This document shows, piece after piece, positions 17,575-44,538 of a stretch of DNA of 64,000 nucleotides. Every line of letters begins with the position of its first letter. Positions within the stretch are counted from its first letter, which is position 1. Position numbers and translations under genes: made by a program. This stretch comes from an uncultured Acidimicrobiia bacterium (GTDB lineage: Bacteria > Actinomycetota > Acidimicrobiia > Spongiisociales > Spongiisociaceae), in the NCBI GenBank assembly GCA_958295745.1, contig OY282370.1, forward strand, positions 682,001 through 746,000. The letters run 5' to 3'. The notes beneath the pieces were generated by a model. It was not told where the DNA came from. It ran no database searches and saw nothing but the letters and a program-made list of their open reading frames with translations.

Positions 17575-18525
17575 TTAGAGGGGATCCCCCGTAATGAGGT
17601 CGTAGGTGTCCAGGTAGTCCTCGATGTCGGAAACATACGCGCGGACATCTACGACTATGGATTTGCCGGCAGGGAACTGGCCGGCGGCGTAGGCAACAAC
17701 CCGACACGCTATCCGGGCCAGGTCCGACAGCATCTCGGGAGTGGCGTCAGGGTCTTGTCCTGACCTGTGGTAGATGGAATCGGTGTGCCACGGCGTGATC
17801 GCCCCGGCGCCGAGGGGCTCCAGCATTGCGAGCAGAACGCTGTGGTGCGGTTCGGCCAGATCGTCACAGAGCTTCCCTATATCGTGCCCCCACGCGGGCC
17901 GATCAGGGTCGGCGCCGAGATGGATGAGAGATTTGACCGCCGCCTCGACCGTATTGTGGGCAAAACCGCAGCCCTGCAGCAACCGGGCCTCGAGCGCCAC
18001 GAATGTCCGGACCTCGTGGGCGCCCTGCTCGCTTGGACCGGGGCTGAGGTTGTTGAACAACCCAACCAACGCACGCAGCGCACTCTTCAACCTGTAGTTG
18101 GCTTCTTCGTAGTCGCTGGTAGGCATCACCATCTCCTTGTCCCAATCCACATCGTCAACGGCGCGGCGGTCGACCAGCACCACCCCGTCCTTGGCGGCCC
18201 TCCCCTCGAACGAAGTACGCACCCGGCTAGTGCGCACCCTCCACTCCGCTCGGTCGGTCACGCTTACATCTACCGAGAACCCCGACGCCCGCCGCGCCAA
18301 CTTCGCCAACTCGCAACGCCTCGCCCAACGCTCCCCATAATCAAGATCGTCATAGATCGCCACCAAATCGATATCGCTGCGCTCCGTCGCATCCCCGCGC
18401 GCCACCGAACCGAACAACACCACCCGACCCACCCCCGCCTCAGCCAACACAGCCGCCGCCCGCTCCGCGTCGGCCCGCCCAGGCACAGCAACCACCTTCG
18501 TTGCCGCAGACTGCTCAATCACCAT
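17575..18525 (-). CDS. Fused nucleotidyltransferase-HEPN-like protein 1
   Basis: A 316-residue protein. The N-terminal part (about residues 15-110) is a minimal nucleotidyltransferase (MNT/polymerase-beta fold) with the signature 'FGSVARGDATERSDIDLVAI' (GS, then DxD). The C-terminal part (about 150-300) is helical with 'CGFAHNTVEAAVKSLIHLG' and 'GHDIGKLCDDL', resembling HEPN domains. The RxxxxH ribonuclease motif of toxin HEPN proteins is not obvious, so the domain may only bind substrate. MNT and HEPN are usually separate genes forming a toxin-antitoxin pair; here they are one chain. The ATG at 18525 was chosen because the paralogue upstream starts at the same point. The extension to 18678 reads through that paralogue's end. 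Confidence 0.75.
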   Translation of the reverse strand: MVIEQSAATKVVAVPGRADAERAAAVLAEAGVGRVVLFGSVARGDATERSDIDLVAIYDDLDYGERWARRCELAKLARRASGFSVDVSVTDRAEWRVRTSRVRTSFEGRAAKDGVVLVDRRAVDDVDWDKEMVMPTSDYEEANYRLKSALRALVGLFNNLSPGPSEQGAHEVRTFVALEARLLQGCGFAHNTVEAAVKSLIHLGADPDRPAWGHDIGKLCDDLAEPHHSVLLAMLEPLGAGAITPWHTDSIYHRSGQDPDATPEMLSDLARIACRVVAYAAGQFPAGKSIVVDVRAYVSDIEDYLDTYDLITGDPL

Positions 18526-18586
18526 ACAACCAGCATAAACCCCCAACACGAACAAACCAGAGATCGAGGCCGGGCCCGCGGCACCG

Positions 18587-19519
18587 CTAGAGGGGCTCCC
18601 CGGTGTCGAGAGCGTAGGTGTCCAGGTAGTCCTCGATGCTTTCGGCATACCATCGGATAGCGGACGCGGCGGGCTCATCGGCGGGGAACCGGCCGGCGGC
18701 GTATGAAGCCACCCGACACGCTATCCGCGCCATATCGGCCAGCAGTTCCGGCGCAACGTCAGGATCCTGACCCGACCTGCCGTAGACGGCGTCGGTGTGC
18801 CACGGCGTGATCGCATCGGCGCCGAGCGGTTCCAGCAACAGAGGACGATCGCTGCGATGAGGTTCGGTCAGCAAACCGCAGAGCTTCCCGATGTCGTGAC
18901 CCCACGGCGGCCGGTCAGGATCAGCCTCCAGATGGATGAGCGCTTTGATCGCCAACTCAACCGTCATATGGGCCTCCCCGCAGCCGCGATGCAGCCGGTC
19001 CACCAGCCGCGTCCATGCCACTACCTCAGGGCCGCCCCGCTCGACCGGATCGGATCTGAGCTGATACAGCAGAGCACCTAACGCACCTCTTGTCCTCCCC
19101 AACCGGTCGAGCGCCTCTTCGTAGTCGCCGGCGGGCATCACCATCTCCTTGTCCCAATCCACCCCATCGGCAGCGGGGCGGTCCACCAGCACCACCCCGT
19201 GGCGGGCGGCCCTCCCCTCGAACGAAGTACGCACCCGGCTGGTGCGCATCCTCCACTCCGCCCGGTCGGTCACGCTCACATCTACCGAGAACCCCGACGC
19301 CCGCCGCGCCAATTCCTGCAACTCGCCGCGCTTCGCCCAACGCTCCCCGTAATCGAGATCGTCATAGATCGCCACCAGATCGATGTCGCTGCGCTCCGTC
19401 GCATCCCCGCGGGCCACCGAACCGAACAACACCACCCGACCTACCCCCGCCTCGGCCAGCGCAGCCGCCGCCCGCTCCGCGTCGGCCAGCCCAGGCACGG
19501 CAACCGTCCTCGTTGCCAC
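18587..19519 (-). CDS. Fused nucleotidyltransferase-HEPN-like protein 2
   Basis: A 310-residue tandem paralogue of the previous protein, 61 bases upstream in the same direction. The nucleotidyltransferase half is almost identical ('FGSVARGDATERSDIDLVAI', then 'VSVTDRAEW' and 'RTSRVRTSFEGRAA'). The helical half has diverged ('CGEAHMTVELAIKALIHLE', 'GHDIGKLCGLL', 'WHTDAVYGRSGQDPD'). Conservation of the catalytic half with variation in the C-terminal half suggests the same chemistry on different partners. Both genes lie head-to-head with the Type III restriction-modification operon (136 bases between starts), in an apparent defence region. Whether they are toxins, antitoxins or modifying enzymes cannot be said. 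Confidence 0.78.
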   Translation of the reverse strand: MATRTVAVPGLADAERAAAALAEAGVGRVVLFGSVARGDATERSDIDLVAIYDDLDYGERWAKRGELQELARRASGFSVDVSVTDRAEWRMRTSRVRTSFEGRAARHGVVLVDRPAADGVDWDKEMVMPAGDYEEALDRLGRTRGALGALLYQLRSDPVERGGPEVVAWTRLVDRLHRGCGEAHMTVELAIKALIHLEADPDRPPWGHDIGKLCGLLTEPHRSDRPLLLEPLGADAITPWHTDAVYGRSGQDPDVAPELLADMARIACRVASYAAGRFPADEPAASAIRWYAESIEDYLDTYALDTGEPL

Positions 19520-19655: not shown

Positions 19656-22239
19656 GTGGCCAAGAGAAAACCCTCGAAGCCGATCGAGAGTTATGCACAC
19701 ACCGACAAGGACCGCGCGAATAATCCGCCCGTGGGCTTGGTGACGGCGGAGGGCGACCCGGACCTGCCCGAAAAAACTTATAGCCACTCAGCTAAGACTC
19801 CCCCCCCCGTTAACTTCGGAAGAATGTTGTAAAACAACATTAGGGGATCACGATCCTCATATCGACCCTCAGCTGGTTTGGGCGGGTAAGGCCGAGGGGA
19901 CATCGTTTTCGGTTCCGACCGTCTCGCTCCATGTTCACGAGCGGATCGACCCCCGCACCATCATCGAGGCGGTCCGCAAGCGCAACGGCCAAGTCTCCGG
20001 CCAGGATTCGCTGTTCGAGACCGAGGAGGAGAACCCTCCCCTGCGCCGGGCTATCGAGTTCTACAAGCATCCGCACAACTGGAGCAATCGCCTGATCGCG
20101 GGCGACAGCCTGCTGGTGATGAACAGCCTCCTGGAGAAGGAGGGCATGGGCGGCCAGGTGCAGATGATCTACATCGACCCGCCCTACGGCATCAAGTACG
20201 GCTCCAACTTCCAACCGTTTGTAGGCCAGCGGGAAGTAAGGGACGGCAAAGACCAGGACCTGACCGCCGAGCCGGAGATGATCAAGGCCTTTCGCGATAC
20301 TTGGGAACTTGGTATCCACTCCTATCTGTCTTACCTACGGGATCGTTTGCTCTTGTCACGTGAATTACTGACTCCTTCAGGTAGCTGTTTTGTTCAAATT
20401 GGGGATGAAAATGTACATAGGATTGGACTACTAATGGACGAGGTATTTGGATCGAATAATCGAATAGCAACTATTACTTTTGTCACCGCTGGCGCTCGAT
20501 CCTCTAAAAATATACCGGAGGTAACTAGCTTTCTTCTTTGGTATGCTAAAGAAAAAGAACAGATCAAATATCATCAAATCTATGAAAAGCTAAATCGTCA
20601 AGAAATCATCGAACACTTTAAATCATATGCTCTTATCGAAATGCCTGACAGTACAACTCAAAAACTCACACCCCTACAACGTATTAATCCTGACAAAAAT
20701 CTCCCTAAAGGAGCACGCGTTTATAGACGTCAACGTTTGACGTCACAAGGGTGGTCTACCACGGGAAGGTCTGAACCTTATGAGTGGCAAGGGAACCTTT
20801 ATCATTGTCGTGAGACTGAACATTGGTCTGTTTCAGAGCAAGGATTAGATCGCTTATCTGAACTGAGAAGACTGGATGCTCCAGAAGGTAAGAATTCGCT
20901 CCAATGGAAGTGGTTTGAAGATGAAGTACCAGGACGGAAGGTTAACAATGTTTGGCATAAACAGATGAAACCAAGCAACAAGCGATACATAGTAGAAACG
21001 TCCCGGATAATTTTAGAACGATGTTTATTAATGACCACGGACCCGGGCGACCTAGTATTCGACCCCACCTGCGGAAGCGGCACTACTGCAGTCGTATCCG
21101 AACAGTGGGGGCGGCGTTGGATCACCTGCGATACCAGCCGGGTGGCGCTCACGCTTGCGCGACAGCGGCTGATGACCTCCAACTTCGACTATTACCGGCT
21201 TGCTCATCCTGACGAAGGAGTGGGAAGCGGCTTCGTTTACAAAACCGTGCCCAAAGTATCAGCTGCAATCCTCGCCTACGACCAACCACCCCAGATTACC
21301 ACCCTTTACGACCAGCCTTTCAAGGACAGCCGCAAGTCGCGGGTTACCGGGCCGTTTACGGTGGAAGCGGTTCCCGCCCCTGCGGTGCGTCCGCTCAATG
21401 AACCTCTCGACGAACCCTCCGAGGCCGACGAGTCGGTTTGCCGGAGCGGCGAGTCGGCCCGGCAGTCCGAATGGCGGGACGAGCTGCTGAAAACCGGGCT
21501 GCGAGGCGTGGGCGGCCACCGGATATCCCTGACCCGGCTGGAGCCGCTCCCCGCCCCCTGGCTGCATGCCGAAGGCGAGGCCGCCGACGGGATGCGGATG
21601 GCGGTGTCGTTCGGACCCGAGCACGCCCCGCTCGAGACCCGGCAGGTGGAGCGGGCCATCGAGACCGCCCGCACTCTGGTGCCTCGGCCGGAGCTGCTGG
21701 TGTTCGCCGCCTTCGCCTTCGATCCGGAGGCGGTCAAGGACATCGACGAGACCAGCTGGCCGGGTGTCACCCTGCTGCGGGCGCAGATGAACGCCGACCT
21801 GCTCACCGACGATCTCAAGAAGAAGCGCTCCGGCAACGAGAGCTTCTGGCTGGTGGGTCAACCTGAGGTAGAAGTTGAATGTACAGACGATGGCCGTTTC
21901 CGGGTGGAGGTGTTGGGTTTCGACTACTTCGACACCCGCAACGGGGAGCTCACCTCGGGGGGCGCCGGCCAGATCGCGGTGTGGATGCTGGACCCCGACT
22001 ACGACGGGCGCAGCATCTTCCCCCGCCAGGTGTTCTTTCCTCTCGACGGCAAGAATCCCAAACGCGGGTGGAACAAGCTGGCCAAGACCCTGCGGGCGCA
22101 GATCGACCAGTCCCGCATAGAGGCCTATCGGGGTACGGTCTCGCTCCCCTTCGAGGCGGGCGAGCATAGGAGGGCGGCGGTCAAGGTGGTGGACAACCGG
22201 GGGGTGGAGAGCCTGCGGCTCCTGAGCCTGGACATATAG
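19656..22239 (+). CDS. mod: Type III DNA methyltransferase (Mod), out of frame at a C9 tract
   Basis: Beta-class adenine methyltransferase, the specificity and modification subunit of a Type III system. The start is GTG 19656 (AGGAG seven bases upstream); the first codons give 'YAHTDKDRANNPPVGLVT', the usual Mod opening. After nine Cs (19800-19808) this frame ends at TAA 19830. The +1 frame, open across the same tract, carries on with 'DPHIDPQLVWAGKAEG' and 'NRLIAGDSLLVMNSLL'. Motif IV DPPY follows at 20176-20187, then the target-recognition region, motif I 'DPTCGSGT' near 21061 and a C-terminal domain. With eight Cs one 860-residue protein results; as written only a peptide, or a truncated form from GTG 20116, can be made. 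The middle is low-GC. res follows with no gap. Confidence 0.88.
19800..19808 (+). repeat. Poly-C tract (C9) inside mod, candidate phase-variation switch
   Basis: This is a run of nine C residues at codon 49-52 of mod. Losing one C (or gaining two) joins the N-terminal frame to the methylase frame with no stop between them; nine Cs leave the gene off. The run lies in a short segment (about 19782-19845) that looks inserted between the conserved 'EKTY' and 'DPH' pieces. That segment also carries an 8-bp inverted repeat (AATGTTGT, AAA, ACAACATT at 19823-19841). Slipped-strand mispairing at such tracts is the known switching mechanism of Type III mod genes in Neisseria and Haemophilus. Confidence 0.6.
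20286..21040 (+). other. Low-GC mosaic block covering the Mod target-recognition region
   Basis: Base use changes abruptly from GC-rich to AT-rich at about 20286 and back at about 21040 while the reading frame is kept. The block starts roughly 100 bases after the DPPY motif and ends just before motif I, so it covers the target-recognition domain and little else. Codons such as AAA, ATT, TTT and AGA, rare in the flanks, are frequent inside it. This is the pattern left by exchange of a specificity domain from a lower-GC donor by homologous recombination in the conserved flanks. Confidence 0.75.
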
Positions 22240-25056
22240 GTGGCCAACCCGGTCCAGCGGGGCCTGTCCCATTCCGGCGGCATCGACAAGCTGATCGTCA
22301 ACTCCCCCTACACCGAGCCGTCCAGCCACTGGCGCTACGACCGGGCCGCCCGTTCCTTCGAGCTGCTGGAAGGGCGGCGGCCGGCCGGATACCTGGTGGC
22401 CACCCCCGACGCCCAGACCTTCGACGACCCGGGCATCTTCCACGAGATCGAGCTGGTCAACCGGATCCGTCCGCGGGCGGCGGCTTGGCGGCGGGCCGGC
22501 TATCCGGGGGTTACCGGCATCACCCGCCGCCTGCTGGAGCACTGGCGCAACCGGAAGGGCGCCGACGACCTGCGGTTGTTCTTCTGCCAGATGGAGGCGG
22601 TCGAGACCCTGATCTGGCTTGCCGAGGCGCCCGCCTCCCAAACGGTGGGGATACAGGTTCCGTCAGACGGCGGCGGGTTCGAACGGCTGTGCGCCAAGAT
22701 GGCCACCGGAACCGGCAAGACGGTGGTGATGGGGATGGTGATCGCCTGGCAGATACTCAACAAGACGGCCAATCCCAACGACCCACGTTTCTCCCGCAAC
22801 GTGCTGGTGGTGGCGCCCGGCCTGACCGTGCGCAGCCGGCTGTCGGTGGTGGACCCGAACGAGCGGGACAACTACTACGACGAGTTCGACCTGGTGCCGT
22901 CCAACCTGCGGGACCGTCTGCGGCAGGGGCGGGTGCGGGTGCGCAACTGGCACGCCCTCGGCTGGCAGACCGAGGAGCATATCCGGCGCAGGCGGTCGGT
23001 GGACAAACGGGGCGCCAAGAGCGACGAGGCCTGGGTGAGGGAGGTGTTGGGGGACGAGATGGCCCGCTCCCGCAACCTGGCGGTCATCAACGACGAGGCC
23101 CACCACGCCTGGCGCATCCCGCCGGACCGGAAAGCCGCCGAGTTCTACAAGAAGGAAGTGGAGGAGGCCACCAAGTGGGTGGAGGCGCTCGACCGCATCG
23201 ACCGCGCCCGGGGCGTCCTGCGCTGCTACGACTTCACCGCCACCCCGTTCGTCCCCTCCGGCAAGAAAGCCAGCGGGGAGGCCTTGTTCGGCTGGATCGT
23301 CAGCGACTTCAGCCTCAACGACGCCATCGAATCGGGCCTGGTGAAAACCCCGCGGGTGGTGGTGCGGGACGACACCGGGATCAATGCCGAAACCTACAGG
23401 TCCCGGCTGTATCACATCTACAACAACAAGGAGGTGAAAACCGATCTGAACCGGAAGGCCCCACCCGAGGCGCCGCTGCCCGACCTGGTGGCGGCGGGTT
23501 ACACCCTGCTGGGCCACGACTGGCAGGAGGCCCGCCAGGCTTGGGCGGACAACGATCACCCCACCCCGCCGGTGATGATCACGGTGGCCAACCGCACCGA
23601 GACCGCCGCCCGCGTCAAGCACGCCTTCGACCGCGGACGGATTCCGGTGCCTGAGCTATGCGAGCCGGAACTGACCTTGCACATCGACTCGAAGGTTCTC
23701 AAGAAGGCGGAGGAGAGCGAGGCGCCCATCGCCGAGCTGCCCGGCGCCGCGAAGGCGGGCGGCGAGGTGAAGCTGACCAGGGTCCAGCAGGCCGAGATGC
23801 TGCGGCGGCAGGTGGACACCATCGGGCGGCCGGGCGAGCCGGGCGGGCAGATCCGCCACGTGATATCGGTGGCGATGCTGTCGGAGGGGTGGGACGCCAA
23901 GACGGTCACCCACATCATGGGGCTGCGGGCCTTCTCCAGCCAGCTGCTGTGTGAGCAGGTGGTGGGCCGGGGTCTGCGCCGCACCTCCTACGAGGTGAAC
24001 GAGCACGGGTTCTTCGAACCGGAGTACGTGAACATCTTCGGGGTGCCGTTCACGTTCCTGCCCCACGAGTCGCCGAGCGGACCGCCCACACCGCCCAAGC
24101 CGAAGACCCCGATCTACCCACTTGAGGAGAAGGCCGGGTTCGAGATCAGGTTCCCGGTGGTGATCCGGGTGGAGCGGGTCTACCGCCCCGGCCTCTCCCT
24201 GGACATGAGCAAGGTGACGCCGCTGGTGCTCGACCCGGCGAACACCCCCACCCTGGCCGAACTGGCCAAGACCCTGGAGAGCAAGACCGCCGAGGCGGAT
24301 GTCTGGATCGACCTGGAGAAGATCTGGGGGGACCGCCGTCTGCAGCAGGTTGCCTTCCAGGCGGCGGCGCAGGTCTACGACCAGATGGCCCCCGTCTGGC
24401 CGGGCAGCCGGGAGGTGTTGTGCGCCCGGCTGGTGTCGTTGACCCTGGAGTTCCTGGCTTCGGATCGGATCGTGATCGAAGGCCTGTGGAACCAGGAACC
24501 GCTGCGGCGGCGGATCCTCATCGGGATGAACATGACCCGGATCGTCCAGCATTTCTGGCACGCCGTGGCTTCGGCCAACACCGAGCAGCTGACTCCGGTG
24601 TTCGATCCTGAGCGTCCGATCCGCTCCACCGGGGACATGGGCGTCTGGTACACGGGGAAGCCGGTCGGCCCCGCCCGGCGCAGCCACATCAACTTCTGCG
24701 TGTACGACGGGACGTTCGAGCCGGAGGCGGCCGCCGAGCTGGACAACAGCCCGGACGCGGCGGCCTGGGTCAAGAACGACCACCTCGGCTTCGAGGTGTC
24801 GTACATCCACCGGGGCGTGGTGCGCCGCTACCTGCCCGACTTCCTGATCCGCCTCCGGTCGGGCGTGAACCTCGTACTTGAAGTAAAAGGTCAACCCAAG
24901 GAGGTGGACGAGTCGAAGTGGGCCTACATGCGGGATTGGATCGAGGCCGTGAACACCCACGGCGGCTTCGGCGCGTGGGCCTTCGATGTCCTGACGCCCG
25001 AAACCGACCTCCGCAGCCTCCTGTACGAACAGAACTCCATATCATCGGGCGGATGA
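22240..25056 (+). CDS. res: Type III restriction enzyme Res subunit
   Basis: A 938-residue superfamily 2 helicase-nuclease. Motif I is 'ATGTGKT' at residues 155-161, motif II 'DEAH' starts at 285, motif III 'DFTATPF' follows, and motif VI is 'QVVGRGLRR'. A C-terminal PD-(D/E)xK nuclease has D867 (in 'YLPDF'), E881 and K883 (in 'LEVKG'). Type III Res works only in complex with Mod: ATP-driven translocation between two inversely oriented sites leads to cleavage. The GTG start lies directly after the mod stop, so the two are coupled. All motifs are intact, so if mod is off Res should be inert, because it needs Mod to bind DNA. Confidence 0.92.
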   Translation: MANPVQRGLSHSGGIDKLIVNSPYTEPSSHWRYDRAARSFELLEGRRPAGYLVATPDAQTFDDPGIFHEIELVNRIRPRAAAWRRAGYPGVTGITRRLLEHWRNRKGADDLRLFFCQMEAVETLIWLAEAPASQTVGIQVPSDGGGFERLCAKMATGTGKTVVMGMVIAWQILNKTANPNDPRFSRNVLVVAPGLTVRSRLSVVDPNERDNYYDEFDLVPSNLRDRLRQGRVRVRNWHALGWQTEEHIRRRRSVDKRGAKSDEAWVREVLGDEMARSRNLAVINDEAHHAWRIPPDRKAAEFYKKEVEEATKWVEALDRIDRARGVLRCYDFTATPFVPSGKKASGEALFGWIVSDFSLNDAIESGLVKTPRVVVRDDTGINAETYRSRLYHIYNNKEVKTDLNRKAPPEAPLPDLVAAGYTLLGHDWQEARQAWADNDHPTPPVMITVANRTETAARVKHAFDRGRIPVPELCEPELTLHIDSKVLKKAEESEAPIAELPGAAKAGGEVKLTRVQQAEMLRRQVDTIGRPGEPGGQIRHVISVAMLSEGWDAKTVTHIMGLRAFSSQLLCEQVVGRGLRRTSYEVNEHGFFEPEYVNIFGVPFTFLPHESPSGPPTPPKPKTPIYPLEEKAGFEIRFPVVIRVERVYRPGLSLDMSKVTPLVLDPANTPTLAELAKTLESKTAEADVWIDLEKIWGDRRLQQVAFQAAAQVYDQMAPVWPGSREVLCARLVSLTLEFLASDRIVIEGLWNQEPLRRRILIGMNMTRIVQHFWHAVASANTEQLTPVFDPERPIRSTGDMGVWYTGKPVGPARRSHINFCVYDGTFEPEAAAELDNSPDAAAWVKNDHLGFEVSYIHRGVVRRYLPDFLIRLRSGVNLVLEVKGQPKEVDESKWAYMRDWIEAVNTHGGFGAWAFDVLTPETDLRSLLYEQNSISSGG

Positions 25057-25072: not shown

Positions 25073-26287
25073 ATGAGCCCCGCTGAGCTGCTGGAGCTGA
25101 TCGACAACGGCGAGGACTCGACCCTCGAGTTCAAACGGGACGATATTCCCAACCACGACCTAGCCAAGGAACTCGTGTCCTTCCTCAACCTGGAAGGCGG
25201 GATCGTGCTCCTAGGCGTGGAGGACGACGGGCGCATCTCCGGCGTGAACCGCGATCGGCTCGAAGAATGGGTGGCCGAAACCTGCCGCTCCAAGATCGAA
25301 CCGCCGGTCATCCCGCTTCTTTCCTGGGCGGGAGGCCCCGAAACGGGCAGGCGGGTTCTCGCGGTCCGCATTACCCAGGGCCCCGACAAACCCTACGCCC
25401 GTCTCCACAACAACCGTAAGACCTACTACATCCGCGTCGGCAACACGGTCCGGGAAGCGAGCCGTGAGGAGATGGAACGGTTGTTCCAGGCTTCCGGACG
25501 GCTGCGGTACGGCCTGAAGCCGGTTCCGGGGGCGGACCTCGAATCCCTCGACCGGCGGCGGTTGTCCGAATACTTCACCCGCGTGTCCGAAGGCTCCGCG
25601 CCGCCCTGGGGCGATGTAGAAAGTTGGGAGATCCTGCTGCGCAATGTGGACCTGATGACCGATGCGCAGGGGCGGGCGGCGGCCGCCGTCGACGGAATGC
25701 TCCTGTTCGGCAAGACACCGAAGCGGTATCTGCCGCAGTCGGGGATCCGGGCTCTGTGCTACCCCGGCATCGAACCCGACTACGCGGCCCGCGCCGATGA
25801 ATACCTCATCGGGCCGATGGTTCCGCTCCGGGCGATAGATGGGAGTTTCGTAGAGATCGGCCTGGTCGAACAGGCTTGGGATTTCGTCCGGCGCAACACC
25901 GCCCCCACCTCCTACCTGGACGGCCTCCGGCGCATCGACCGATGGGAGTACCCGGAAAGCGTCATCCGAGAAACGCTCGTCAACGCCCTGGTGCATCGCG
26001 ACTACAGCATCTCGGGCGCCGACATCTCGCTCACCATCTATTCCGACCGCCTCGAGATCGAAAGCCCCGGCCGTCTGCCCAACACGGTCACGGTCGAGAA
26101 AATAAGAGCGGGCATCCGCTATGCGCGCAACCAGACCCTGGTGAACATCATGCGGGACTACGGATACATGGACGCCCGCGGCATGGGGGTCCGCAACAAG
26201 ATCATCCCCGGAATGTTGGAGCACAACGGAACCGAACCCGACTTGATCGCGGAGGAAAACCGGTTCACGGTGCGGCTGTGGAAGTAG
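25073..26287 (+). CDS. AlbA/Schlafen-type ATP-binding protein linked to the RM operon
   Basis: A 404-residue protein. The N-terminal AlbA_2 (Schlafen AAA_4) domain has 'STLEFKRDDI' near residue 16 and 'NLEGGIVLLGVEDDGRISG'. The centre (about 140-300) is helical, and the C-terminal part has a GHKL-like ATPase block ('RETLVNALVHRDYSISGADI', 'IYSDRLEIESPG', 'GMGVRNKII'). COG2865-type proteins with this layout are often called ATP-dependent DNA helicase-like or transcriptional regulators; activity is mostly unproven. It starts 17 bases after res, so it is probably the third gene of the operon. Schlafen-like domains recur in anti-phage systems, which makes an accessory defence or regulatory role plausible but unproven. 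Confidence 0.8.
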   Translation: MSPAELLELIDNGEDSTLEFKRDDIPNHDLAKELVSFLNLEGGIVLLGVEDDGRISGVNRDRLEEWVAETCRSKIEPPVIPLLSWAGGPETGRRVLAVRITQGPDKPYARLHNNRKTYYIRVGNTVREASREEMERLFQASGRLRYGLKPVPGADLESLDRRRLSEYFTRVSEGSAPPWGDVESWEILLRNVDLMTDAQGRAAAAVDGMLLFGKTPKRYLPQSGIRALCYPGIEPDYAARADEYLIGPMVPLRAIDGSFVEIGLVEQAWDFVRRNTAPTSYLDGLRRIDRWEYPESVIRETLVNALVHRDYSISGADISLTIYSDRLEIESPGRLPNTVTVEKIRAGIRYARNQTLVNIMRDYGYMDARGMGVRNKIIPGMLEHNGTEPDLIAEENRFTVRLWK

Positions 26288-42939: not shown

Positions 42940-44538
42940 CTAGCCGGAGTTCTCCGTAGGAACCCCCATCCGCTTGAGCATCAGCTGCAAGGCCCGCTCG
43001 AGGCGCATGGCGGCGGTTTGGGTGTCCTCTTGAAAAGCGAAGGCGATCTCGCTGGTGAGCGTCACCCGGGCCCGTGAGGTCATCCGTTTCAAGGCCGGCG
43101 AGATCCCCTTCGTATGCTGGGCGTGGGTAAGGTCGCGGATCACTTCGGCCACTTGGTGGATGTCGCCGGAGGTCATCTTCTCGTTCAGAACCTTGTACCA
43201 GCGGCTCCAGTTGCTGCCCGAGTCCTGCGGATCTTCCTTTTCTATCTTCCGCAATACCTTCCCGGCGCCCGTCTTGGAGATCACCAACCTGATGCCGCTA
43301 CGGTCGATCGTGTCGACCGGTATCTTGACCGTGAGCTGCTCGATGGCGGCCTCGAGTATGAAGCATTTGCGCGGGGAGTCGTCTATTTCCACGTCGACCA
43401 TATCGGTTATCACCGCTGCTCCGTGATGGGGATGCACCACCTTGTCGCCCACTTTGAAGGCCGGCTTCTTCCTGGTGCCGGAGGCCCCGGATTTGGTTCG
43501 TGAAGAAGACCGCGCCGGCCGCTTTCGCGCCGGCCGCTTCCGGGCCGGTCGCTTCCGGGTCGGCGGGGAAGCCGGCTTGCGGGCCTTGGACTGGGGAACG
43601 GACTTCTTGGCAGCGGGCTTCTTGGCGGCGGCCGACTTCACAGACTTCCCCCCCGACGACGGATCCGCCTTAGCGGTCTTAGCCGTCTTAGCCGTGGTCT
43701 TAGCCGTTTTAGTCGTTTTAGCGGTGGTCTTAGCGGTCTTAGGAGGAGCGGTGGTCTTAGCAGTCTTAGCGGTTTGAGTCGTCTTAGCCGTTTTAGCCGT
43801 CTTAGCGGTGGTCTTGGCCGTCTTAGCCGTCTTGGACTTAGGGGCAACCCCCTTACCAGATGGCTTCCCGTCGGACGAAGACGAACCGGCTTCACCGGCC
43901 TTCGACCGGGCGGCGGCCGACTTCACAGACTTCCCCCCCGACCCCTTCCCGTCCGACGACGCACCCGCCTTGGCAGCCTTGGACTTGGGAACGGACTTCT
44001 TGGCAGAGGGCTTCTTGGCGGCGGCCGACTTCACAGACTTCCCCCCCGACCCCTTCCCGTCCGACGACGCACCCGCCTTGGCAGCCTTGGACTTGGGAAT
44101 GGACTTCTTGGCAGAGGGCTTCTTGGCGGCGGCCGACTTCACAGACTTCCCCCCCGACCCCTTCCCGTCCGACGACGCACCCGCCTTGGCAGCCTTGGAC
44201 TTGGGAATGGACTTCTTGGCAGAGGGCTTCTTGGCGGCGGCCGACTTCACAGACTTCCCCCCCGACCCCTTCCCGTCCGACGACGCACCCGCCTTGGCAG
44301 CCTTGGACTTGGGAATGGACTTCTTGGCAGAGGGCTTCTTGGCGGCGGCCGACTTCACAGACTTCCCCCCCGATCCCTTCCCGTCCGACGACGGATCCGC
44401 CTTGGCGGCCTTGGATTTCGATGCGGTCCGCCCGGCCGTCGAGGCGGCGGCCCCGGTTTTCTCCGAATCGGCGGGCTTCGAGGGTTTCGGAGAGGCCTTC
44501 TTCGGAGAGGCCGGGGCTGGAGCTCTGGTGTCGGTCAT
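42940..44538 (-). CDS. carD: CarD-family RNA polymerase-binding regulator with a long basic repeat tail
   Basis: A 532-residue protein whose last 170 residues are an ordinary CarD: RNA polymerase-interaction domain from about residue 361 ('VGDKVVHPHHGAAVI', 'LTVKIPVDTIDRSGIRLV') and a helical DNA-binding domain ('NWSRWYKVLNEKMTSGDIHQ', 'LTSEIAFAF'). CarD stabilises the open promoter complex, notably at rRNA promoters. The first 360 residues are unusual: Lys/Ala/Ser-rich with a 36-residue repeat (about 46-207), then a KTAK/KTTAK stretch (about 229-296) and RKRPARKRPAR. It resembles AlgP or histone H1-like tails. Actinobacterial CarD is normally about 160 residues. Start ATG 44538; the position between disA and ispD is conserved. 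Confidence 0.9.
   Translation of the reverse strand: MTDTRAPAPASPKKASPKPSKPADSEKTGAAASTAGRTASKSKAAKADPSSDGKGSGGKSVKSAAAKKPSAKKSIPKSKAAKAGASSDGKGSGGKSVKSAAAKKPSAKKSIPKSKAAKAGASSDGKGSGGKSVKSAAAKKPSAKKSIPKSKAAKAGASSDGKGSGGKSVKSAAAKKPSAKKSVPKSKAAKAGASSDGKGSGGKSVKSAAARSKAGEAGSSSSDGKPSGKGVAPKSKTAKTAKTTAKTAKTAKTTQTAKTAKTTAPPKTAKTTAKTTKTAKTTAKTAKTAKADPSSGGKSVKSAAAKKPAAKKSVPQSKARKPASPPTRKRPARKRPARKRPARSSSRTKSGASGTRKKPAFKVGDKVVHPHHGAAVITDMVDVEIDDSPRKCFILEAAIEQLTVKIPVDTIDRSGIRLVISKTGAGKVLRKIEKEDPQDSGSNWSRWYKVLNEKMTSGDIHQVAEVIRDLTHAQHTKGISPALKRMTSRARVTLTSEIAFAFQEDTQTAAMRLERALQLMLKRMGVPTENSG
43916..44400 (-). repeat. 108-bp tandem repeats in the carD tail
   Basis: The same octamer phase (GCCGACTT) recurs at 43916, 44024, 44132, 44240 and 44348, exactly 108 bases (36 codons) apart, and the intervening sequence is almost identical from copy to copy. 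A sixth, partial copy lies near 43627. Each unit encodes 'KSVKSAAAKKPSAKK' plus 'SIPKSKAAKAGASSDGKG'. Such exact repeats can gain or lose units by recombination while keeping frame. Confidence 0.95.

Follow-up and report, generated by a model that had tools for sequence, protein, structure and literature searches.

A type III methylase gene split near a nine-C tract: a candidate phase-variable locus among genome-wide poly-G/C tracts in an uncultured actinobacterium

Introduction

Phase-variable methylase genes are best known from other lineages, and the closest described system to the locus reported here is modH, a phasevarion of Helicobacter pylori in which a homopolymeric tract likewise lies within a type III mod gene (PMC5700931, in part). 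There the tract is poly-G, with reported lengths of G10 to G14, and sits 104 bp downstream of the DNA-recognition region, whereas the C9 tract of the present mod lies near the 5′ end; variation and methylation changes have been demonstrated for modH, whereas this mod is known from sequence alone. The phase-variable type IIG gene cj0031c of Campylobacter jejuni, with effects on methylation, transcripts and phage (PMC4889913, in part), is the counterpart, in another lineage, of two type IIG genes of this genome (L146 and L162). Within the Actinomycetota, slippage during replication at a G tract inside a gene has been measured by deep sequencing in a sortase-pilus locus of Bifidobacterium breve, where pilus genes are switched and not, as would be the case here, a methylase (PMC9187656, in part). 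An earlier note on this DNA knew of no well-described example in the phylum; the B. breve switch narrows that statement, which stands in so far as that case is not a methylase.

A literature search (partial records, with subscription journals thinly covered) returned no precedent for phase variation with homopolymers in sponge symbionts or under the stem Acidimicrobi-. Type III systems were reportedly surveyed by Atack in 2018. That Res depends on Mod is established type III biology, and was the ground on which the earlier note considered an OFF state harmless. In Neisseria, promoter switches of the porA type carry poly-G between −35 and −10. Here, we report a mod gene split near a C tract in a window of 64,000 nt (the whole stretch analysed, bases 682001-746000 of the 3.0-Mb main contig), together with the long C/G tracts of its genome.

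Results

Features of the locus and the tract-bearing genes are collected in Table 1. The C9 tract is the only C/G run of 9 or more in the window. The leader frame, opened by GTG, stops after 58 codons, and the body frame is open across the C9 yet unconnected to the leader at the assembled length. Frame reading and homologues bear out the earlier note in placing leader and methylase body in different frames with the C9 between them, and by frame reading one C fewer (C8) does, as it had said, join the two without an intervening stop. Leader and body are read as one gene in two frames because homologues carry both in one frame, running unbroken across the two parts (..NNPPVGLVT..KTYAHDPHIDPQLVWAGKAE..). 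In the body frame the earliest ATG, GTG or TTG is at 20116 (ORF list), and an OFF state should therefore yield no full Mod.

Table 1 Features of the mod locus (window positions) and genes at long C/G tracts
Feature	Position	Strand	Tract	Basis or state
Mod leader, GTG to tract, 48 codons, frame 1	19656..19799	+		Frame reading; homologous to related Mod N-termini
Extra segment, 64 nt, containing C9; starts after one CAC, ends in another	19788..19851	+		Homologue comparison; absent from homologues
C9 tract	19800..19808	+	C9	Run scan of the window
8-bp hairpin within extra segment	19823..19841	+		Fold of 19780-19855: −19.6 kcal/mol, z −2.75
TAA closing leader frame	19830..19832	+		Frame reading
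Mod body, N6_N4_Mtase, frame 2	19849..22239	+		ORF list, profiles, motifs
Res subunit: TGTGKT at 22705, DEAH at 23092, PD..EVK nuclease-like motif from 24835	22240..25056	+		Profiles, motifs; nuclease motif by eye
Schlafen AlbA_2/HATPase_c_4 protein, downstream of Res	25073..26287	+		ORF list, profiles
This type III mod			C9	Split backed by homologues
Second type III mod, L157			C11	Out of frame, split at tract; backed by homologues
N6 methylase, L161			C12	ATG begins seven bases before tract; split backed by open frames alone
HmaC-like ATPase, L148				Profiles match both sides of tract
Type IIG enzyme, L146			near 3′ end	Profiles match both sides of tract
Type IIG enzyme, L162				Split backed by open frames alone; upstream part without family match
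Type ISP enzyme, L143			one at split, three at or beyond 3′ end	Profiles match both sides
L142, match to PADLOC candidate model PDC-M33A				Split backed by open frames alone
L156, weak match to PADLOC candidate model PDC-M33A				Open frames alone; in frame as assembled
DpdF-like helicase, L150			one, 29 nt before start	
Large secreted or SLH proteins: L144, L147, L153, L154, L155, L159, L160, L165, L166, L167			17 tracts	
Elsewhere: L139, L140, L141, L145, L149, L151, L152, L158, L163, L164			ten tracts	

The body remains open over 796 codons and carries DPPY at 20176 and TCGSGTT at 21067 (motif scan), the DPPY and FxGxG-type motifs of an N6/N4 methylase-family mod; it matches PF01555 (E 4e-31) and PADLOC MTase_III (E 5e-146). 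The adjoining res, open over 938 codons, has helicase motifs and a nuclease motif recognized by eye only, and matches ResIII (E 2.5e-9) and PADLOC REase_III (E 2e-7). On the minus strand at 17575-19519 of the window lie two adjoining nucleotidyltransferase-domain genes that appear to be paralogues, and at 43932-44372 five exact C7 runs at 108-base spacing point to a tandem repeat.

Comparison with relatives set the tract within an extra segment of 64 nt. Of the related loci, 65 gave a match; both flanking motifs were found in 51 of them (the other 14, each without one motif, stand outside the spacing count), and the residues between them numbered 16 to 21 in 50 of the 51 and 25 in L104, an Acidimicrobiales MAG, against 17 plus 64 nt here. 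Where homologues pass from ..KTYA directly into HDPHIDPQLVWAGK, the extra segment separates KTYSH from DPHIDPQ. The linker tolerates added residues in nature, at the same place in L104 and slightly further on in L090, L114, L115, L118 and L131. As the segment is without counterpart in homologues, the frame change is placed within it and not strictly at the C9, which had been put forward as the sole shift point and is still the likeliest place; a simple repeat whose length changes would switch frame does lie between the two mod frames. The related genomes, which the earlier note had proposed to search for tract variants, lacked the C9 in the homologues examined. Since the tract lies within the extra segment, the history of the locus includes an insertion. 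A mobile-element family carrying the tract was considered and rejected, as a search of the genome with 19780-19855 returned that stretch itself and three short weak matches (E 0.2 or more), two of them the C tract and its next bases.

Among the 65 related loci with a match, only L157 and L086 have a C/G run of at least 8 near the N-terminus. L157, the second type III mod of this genome, carries a C11 in the corresponding linker, which is not lengthened to a similar degree. L086, from a Rhodobacteraceae MAG, encodes a related type III Mod; its C10 (1867-1876) lies elsewhere than here, and its leader and body frames differ. A plain pseudogene, broken by the insertion and with an incidental C tract, would fit a segment that is absent from homologues and whose length is not a multiple of three; we rate it quite unlikely, given the open Mod body and Res with their motifs kept, the tract of the second mod, and the membership of the C9 in a strand-polar, genome-wide tract class.

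That class was apparent from counts. Exact C7 and C8 tracts numbered 423 and 40 in the genome (C8/C7 ratio, 0.095), with 35 of the C8 on the main contig, from which about 4 tracts of length 9 and above would be extrapolated (our arithmetic) against at least 40 present, an excess over chance of the kind that marks a phasome. Lengths of 9, 10, 11 and 12 were represented by 7, 6, 20 and 7 of the tracts listed (mode 11), where C9 and C10 cover the main contig to about 2.746 Mb and only C11 and longer beyond that. No A/T run of 9 or more occurred in 346,560 sampled bases. Contigs C2, C4 and C8 (L168-L172) were left out of all counts as unlike the main contig; they are dense in C/G tracts, have fewer long ORFs than the window and in most cases a lower GC, and are perhaps contamination. 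Only 3 of 38 scored tracts of 9-12 lay inside an intact gene, compared with 27 of 32 scored C8 (Fisher, 3e-11), a gap that arises in part because long tracts break their host genes. Scoring covered 38 of the 40 listed tracts (2737766 and 2737885 were excluded, being under 300 bases from a stretch end) and 32 of the 35 C8 (728794 and 913890 stood outside the control set, and 2150604 was near a stretch end).

The tracts were also polar. On the main contig, C lay on the lagging strand, as assigned by dnaA position and GC skew, in all 40 listed tracts of 9-12 (P 1.8e-12), whereas 15 of 35 C8 were replichore concordant (P 0.5), with no strand bias (Fisher, 4e-9, for the long tracts among those listed against C8). 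As the tracts are clustered, these unmerged P values overstate the case; merging tracts within 20 kb left 27 of 27 clusters concordant (P 1.5e-8). Polarity flips between 1,252,415 and 1,496,694. The sampled left arm has a GC skew of −0.041 and the right arm one of +0.065, with values near zero in two bins (1.25 to 1.75 Mb), and the C-terminal domain of dnaA maps to 1,385,903. The replichore boundary was fixed after data inspection, and dnaA was searched for afterwards; with dnaA taken as the origin, the leading strand carries the G at every listed tract.

Genes at the tracts were placed in classes of our own, with genes beside C8 tracts outside the comparison. Among the tracts listed, 12 fall in the reading frames of restriction-modification or candidate defence genes, nine genes in all, and 17 either precede surface-protein genes or fall early within them; as a raw share, 29 of the 40 thus belong to these two classes and one to a helicase leader. 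In the surface class, L144 and L154 had no Pfam match, and L159 was placed by eye. Some tracts outside both classes adjoin housekeeping genes, such as those for a UvrD-type helicase, TsaD and YchF. Behind the type ISP enzyme, at L143:3567-3981 (G000:C1:253566-253980), G tracts of 10, 11 and 12 separate similar short coding units whose ends read ..IPRR, and these three tracts may exchange one C-terminus of the enzyme for another. At the assembled tract lengths, eight of the nine defence genes with tracts read out of frame or are truncated, which exceeds random expectation without being significant (P about 0.14, our arithmetic).

Tract lengths as assembled may carry homopolymer error, long homopolymers being a weak point of long-read assemblies, and the many defence genes out of frame or truncated would be expected were the tracts mis-sized. 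We nevertheless think it unlikely that such an error hides an intact, stable mod: mis-sizing creates no tracts and leaves their number, C11 mode, strand polarity and siting outside intact genes unexplained, and a mis-sized C9 is still a long tract.

Promoter tracts were read separately. In seven promoters of SLH genes a common GGTTGC is followed by G10-G12 and a TATAAT-like box, and L144 has TTGACA 19 nt from TATCTT with G11 in between, an arrangement resembling the porA-type poly-G spacer in another lineage, the likeness here being one of sequence. The promoters of L160 and of one L166 copy are identical over the 40 bases before the tract and the 20 after it, and diverge further on, yet carry G11 and G12. 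These paralogous promoters indirectly suggest that tract length changes faster than the flanking sequence. A general promoter rule was rejected: with the G strand scored, sigma-70 hexamers spanning the tract gave at least 9 of 12 matches at 5 of the 40 tracts, and with the C strand scored, at 2 of the 40; a promoter role is argued, on these sequences, for the SLH family and L144 alone.

A profile search of the genome (completeness, 96.87%) found a NucS_C match and no MutS_V match, a combination that agrees with an actinobacterial host. NucS repair does not correct indels (PMC8228993, in part), and with MutS not found, tract slips should therefore escape mismatch repair.

Discussion

We consider it likely that this mod is a slipped-strand phase-variable gene within a genome-wide poly-G/C phasome. 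Slipped-strand mispairing at the C tract, in the linker between the N-terminal segment and the methylase body, would switch the gene: the assembled state would be OFF, with a 58-residue peptide made, and a shift of tract length to the right frame would give full Mod carrying some 21 additional residues in its linker. The gene would be one of the genome-wide contingency loci at defence and surface genes, with the lack of MutS leaving tract slips unrepaired, and genes at such slippery C/G runs probably turn on and off stochastically. From this model we infer that switching is reversible, that the gene is expressed, that full Mod is functional, and that methylation or other genes change. The on/off switch claimed by the earlier note gains from genome context (nine defence-gene frames, strand polarity, unequal paralogous-promoter tracts and no MutS found), and is still a prediction from DNA. 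Against switching stand the absence of the tract from the homologues examined and the ten of 40 listed tracts without an obvious switch role.

Long homopolymers are also slippery for RNA polymerase and ribosomes, so that some full Mod might be made from out-of-frame DNA. As the whole explanation, ribosomal or transcriptional slippage seems very improbable to us, for it leaves the promoter tracts and their G11/G12 difference unexplained; it could act alongside slippage of the DNA.

Beyond this genome, C11 matches were present in 27 of 59 genomes listed (this one included). A family-wide phasome was considered and dropped, because in seven relatives tracts occurred as opposed pairs and at contig ends; the C/G tracts of those seven may be a sequencing artefact.

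For the wider mechanism, we propose tentatively, as possible yet somewhat short of probable, that in a MutS-less bacterium contingency loci are built through a mechanism tied to the replication strand, in which long G tracts would form or be retained on the leading strand alone, whatever the gene direction, making many defence systems and an SLH-type surface coat independently phase variable. If real, this would be phase variation on the scale of Campylobacter, Helicobacter and Neisseria in an uncultured lineage with NucS-type repair, affecting many defence systems at once, and it would make it possible to test whether phasomes are favoured where indel repair is missing, and what confines the tracts to one replication strand.
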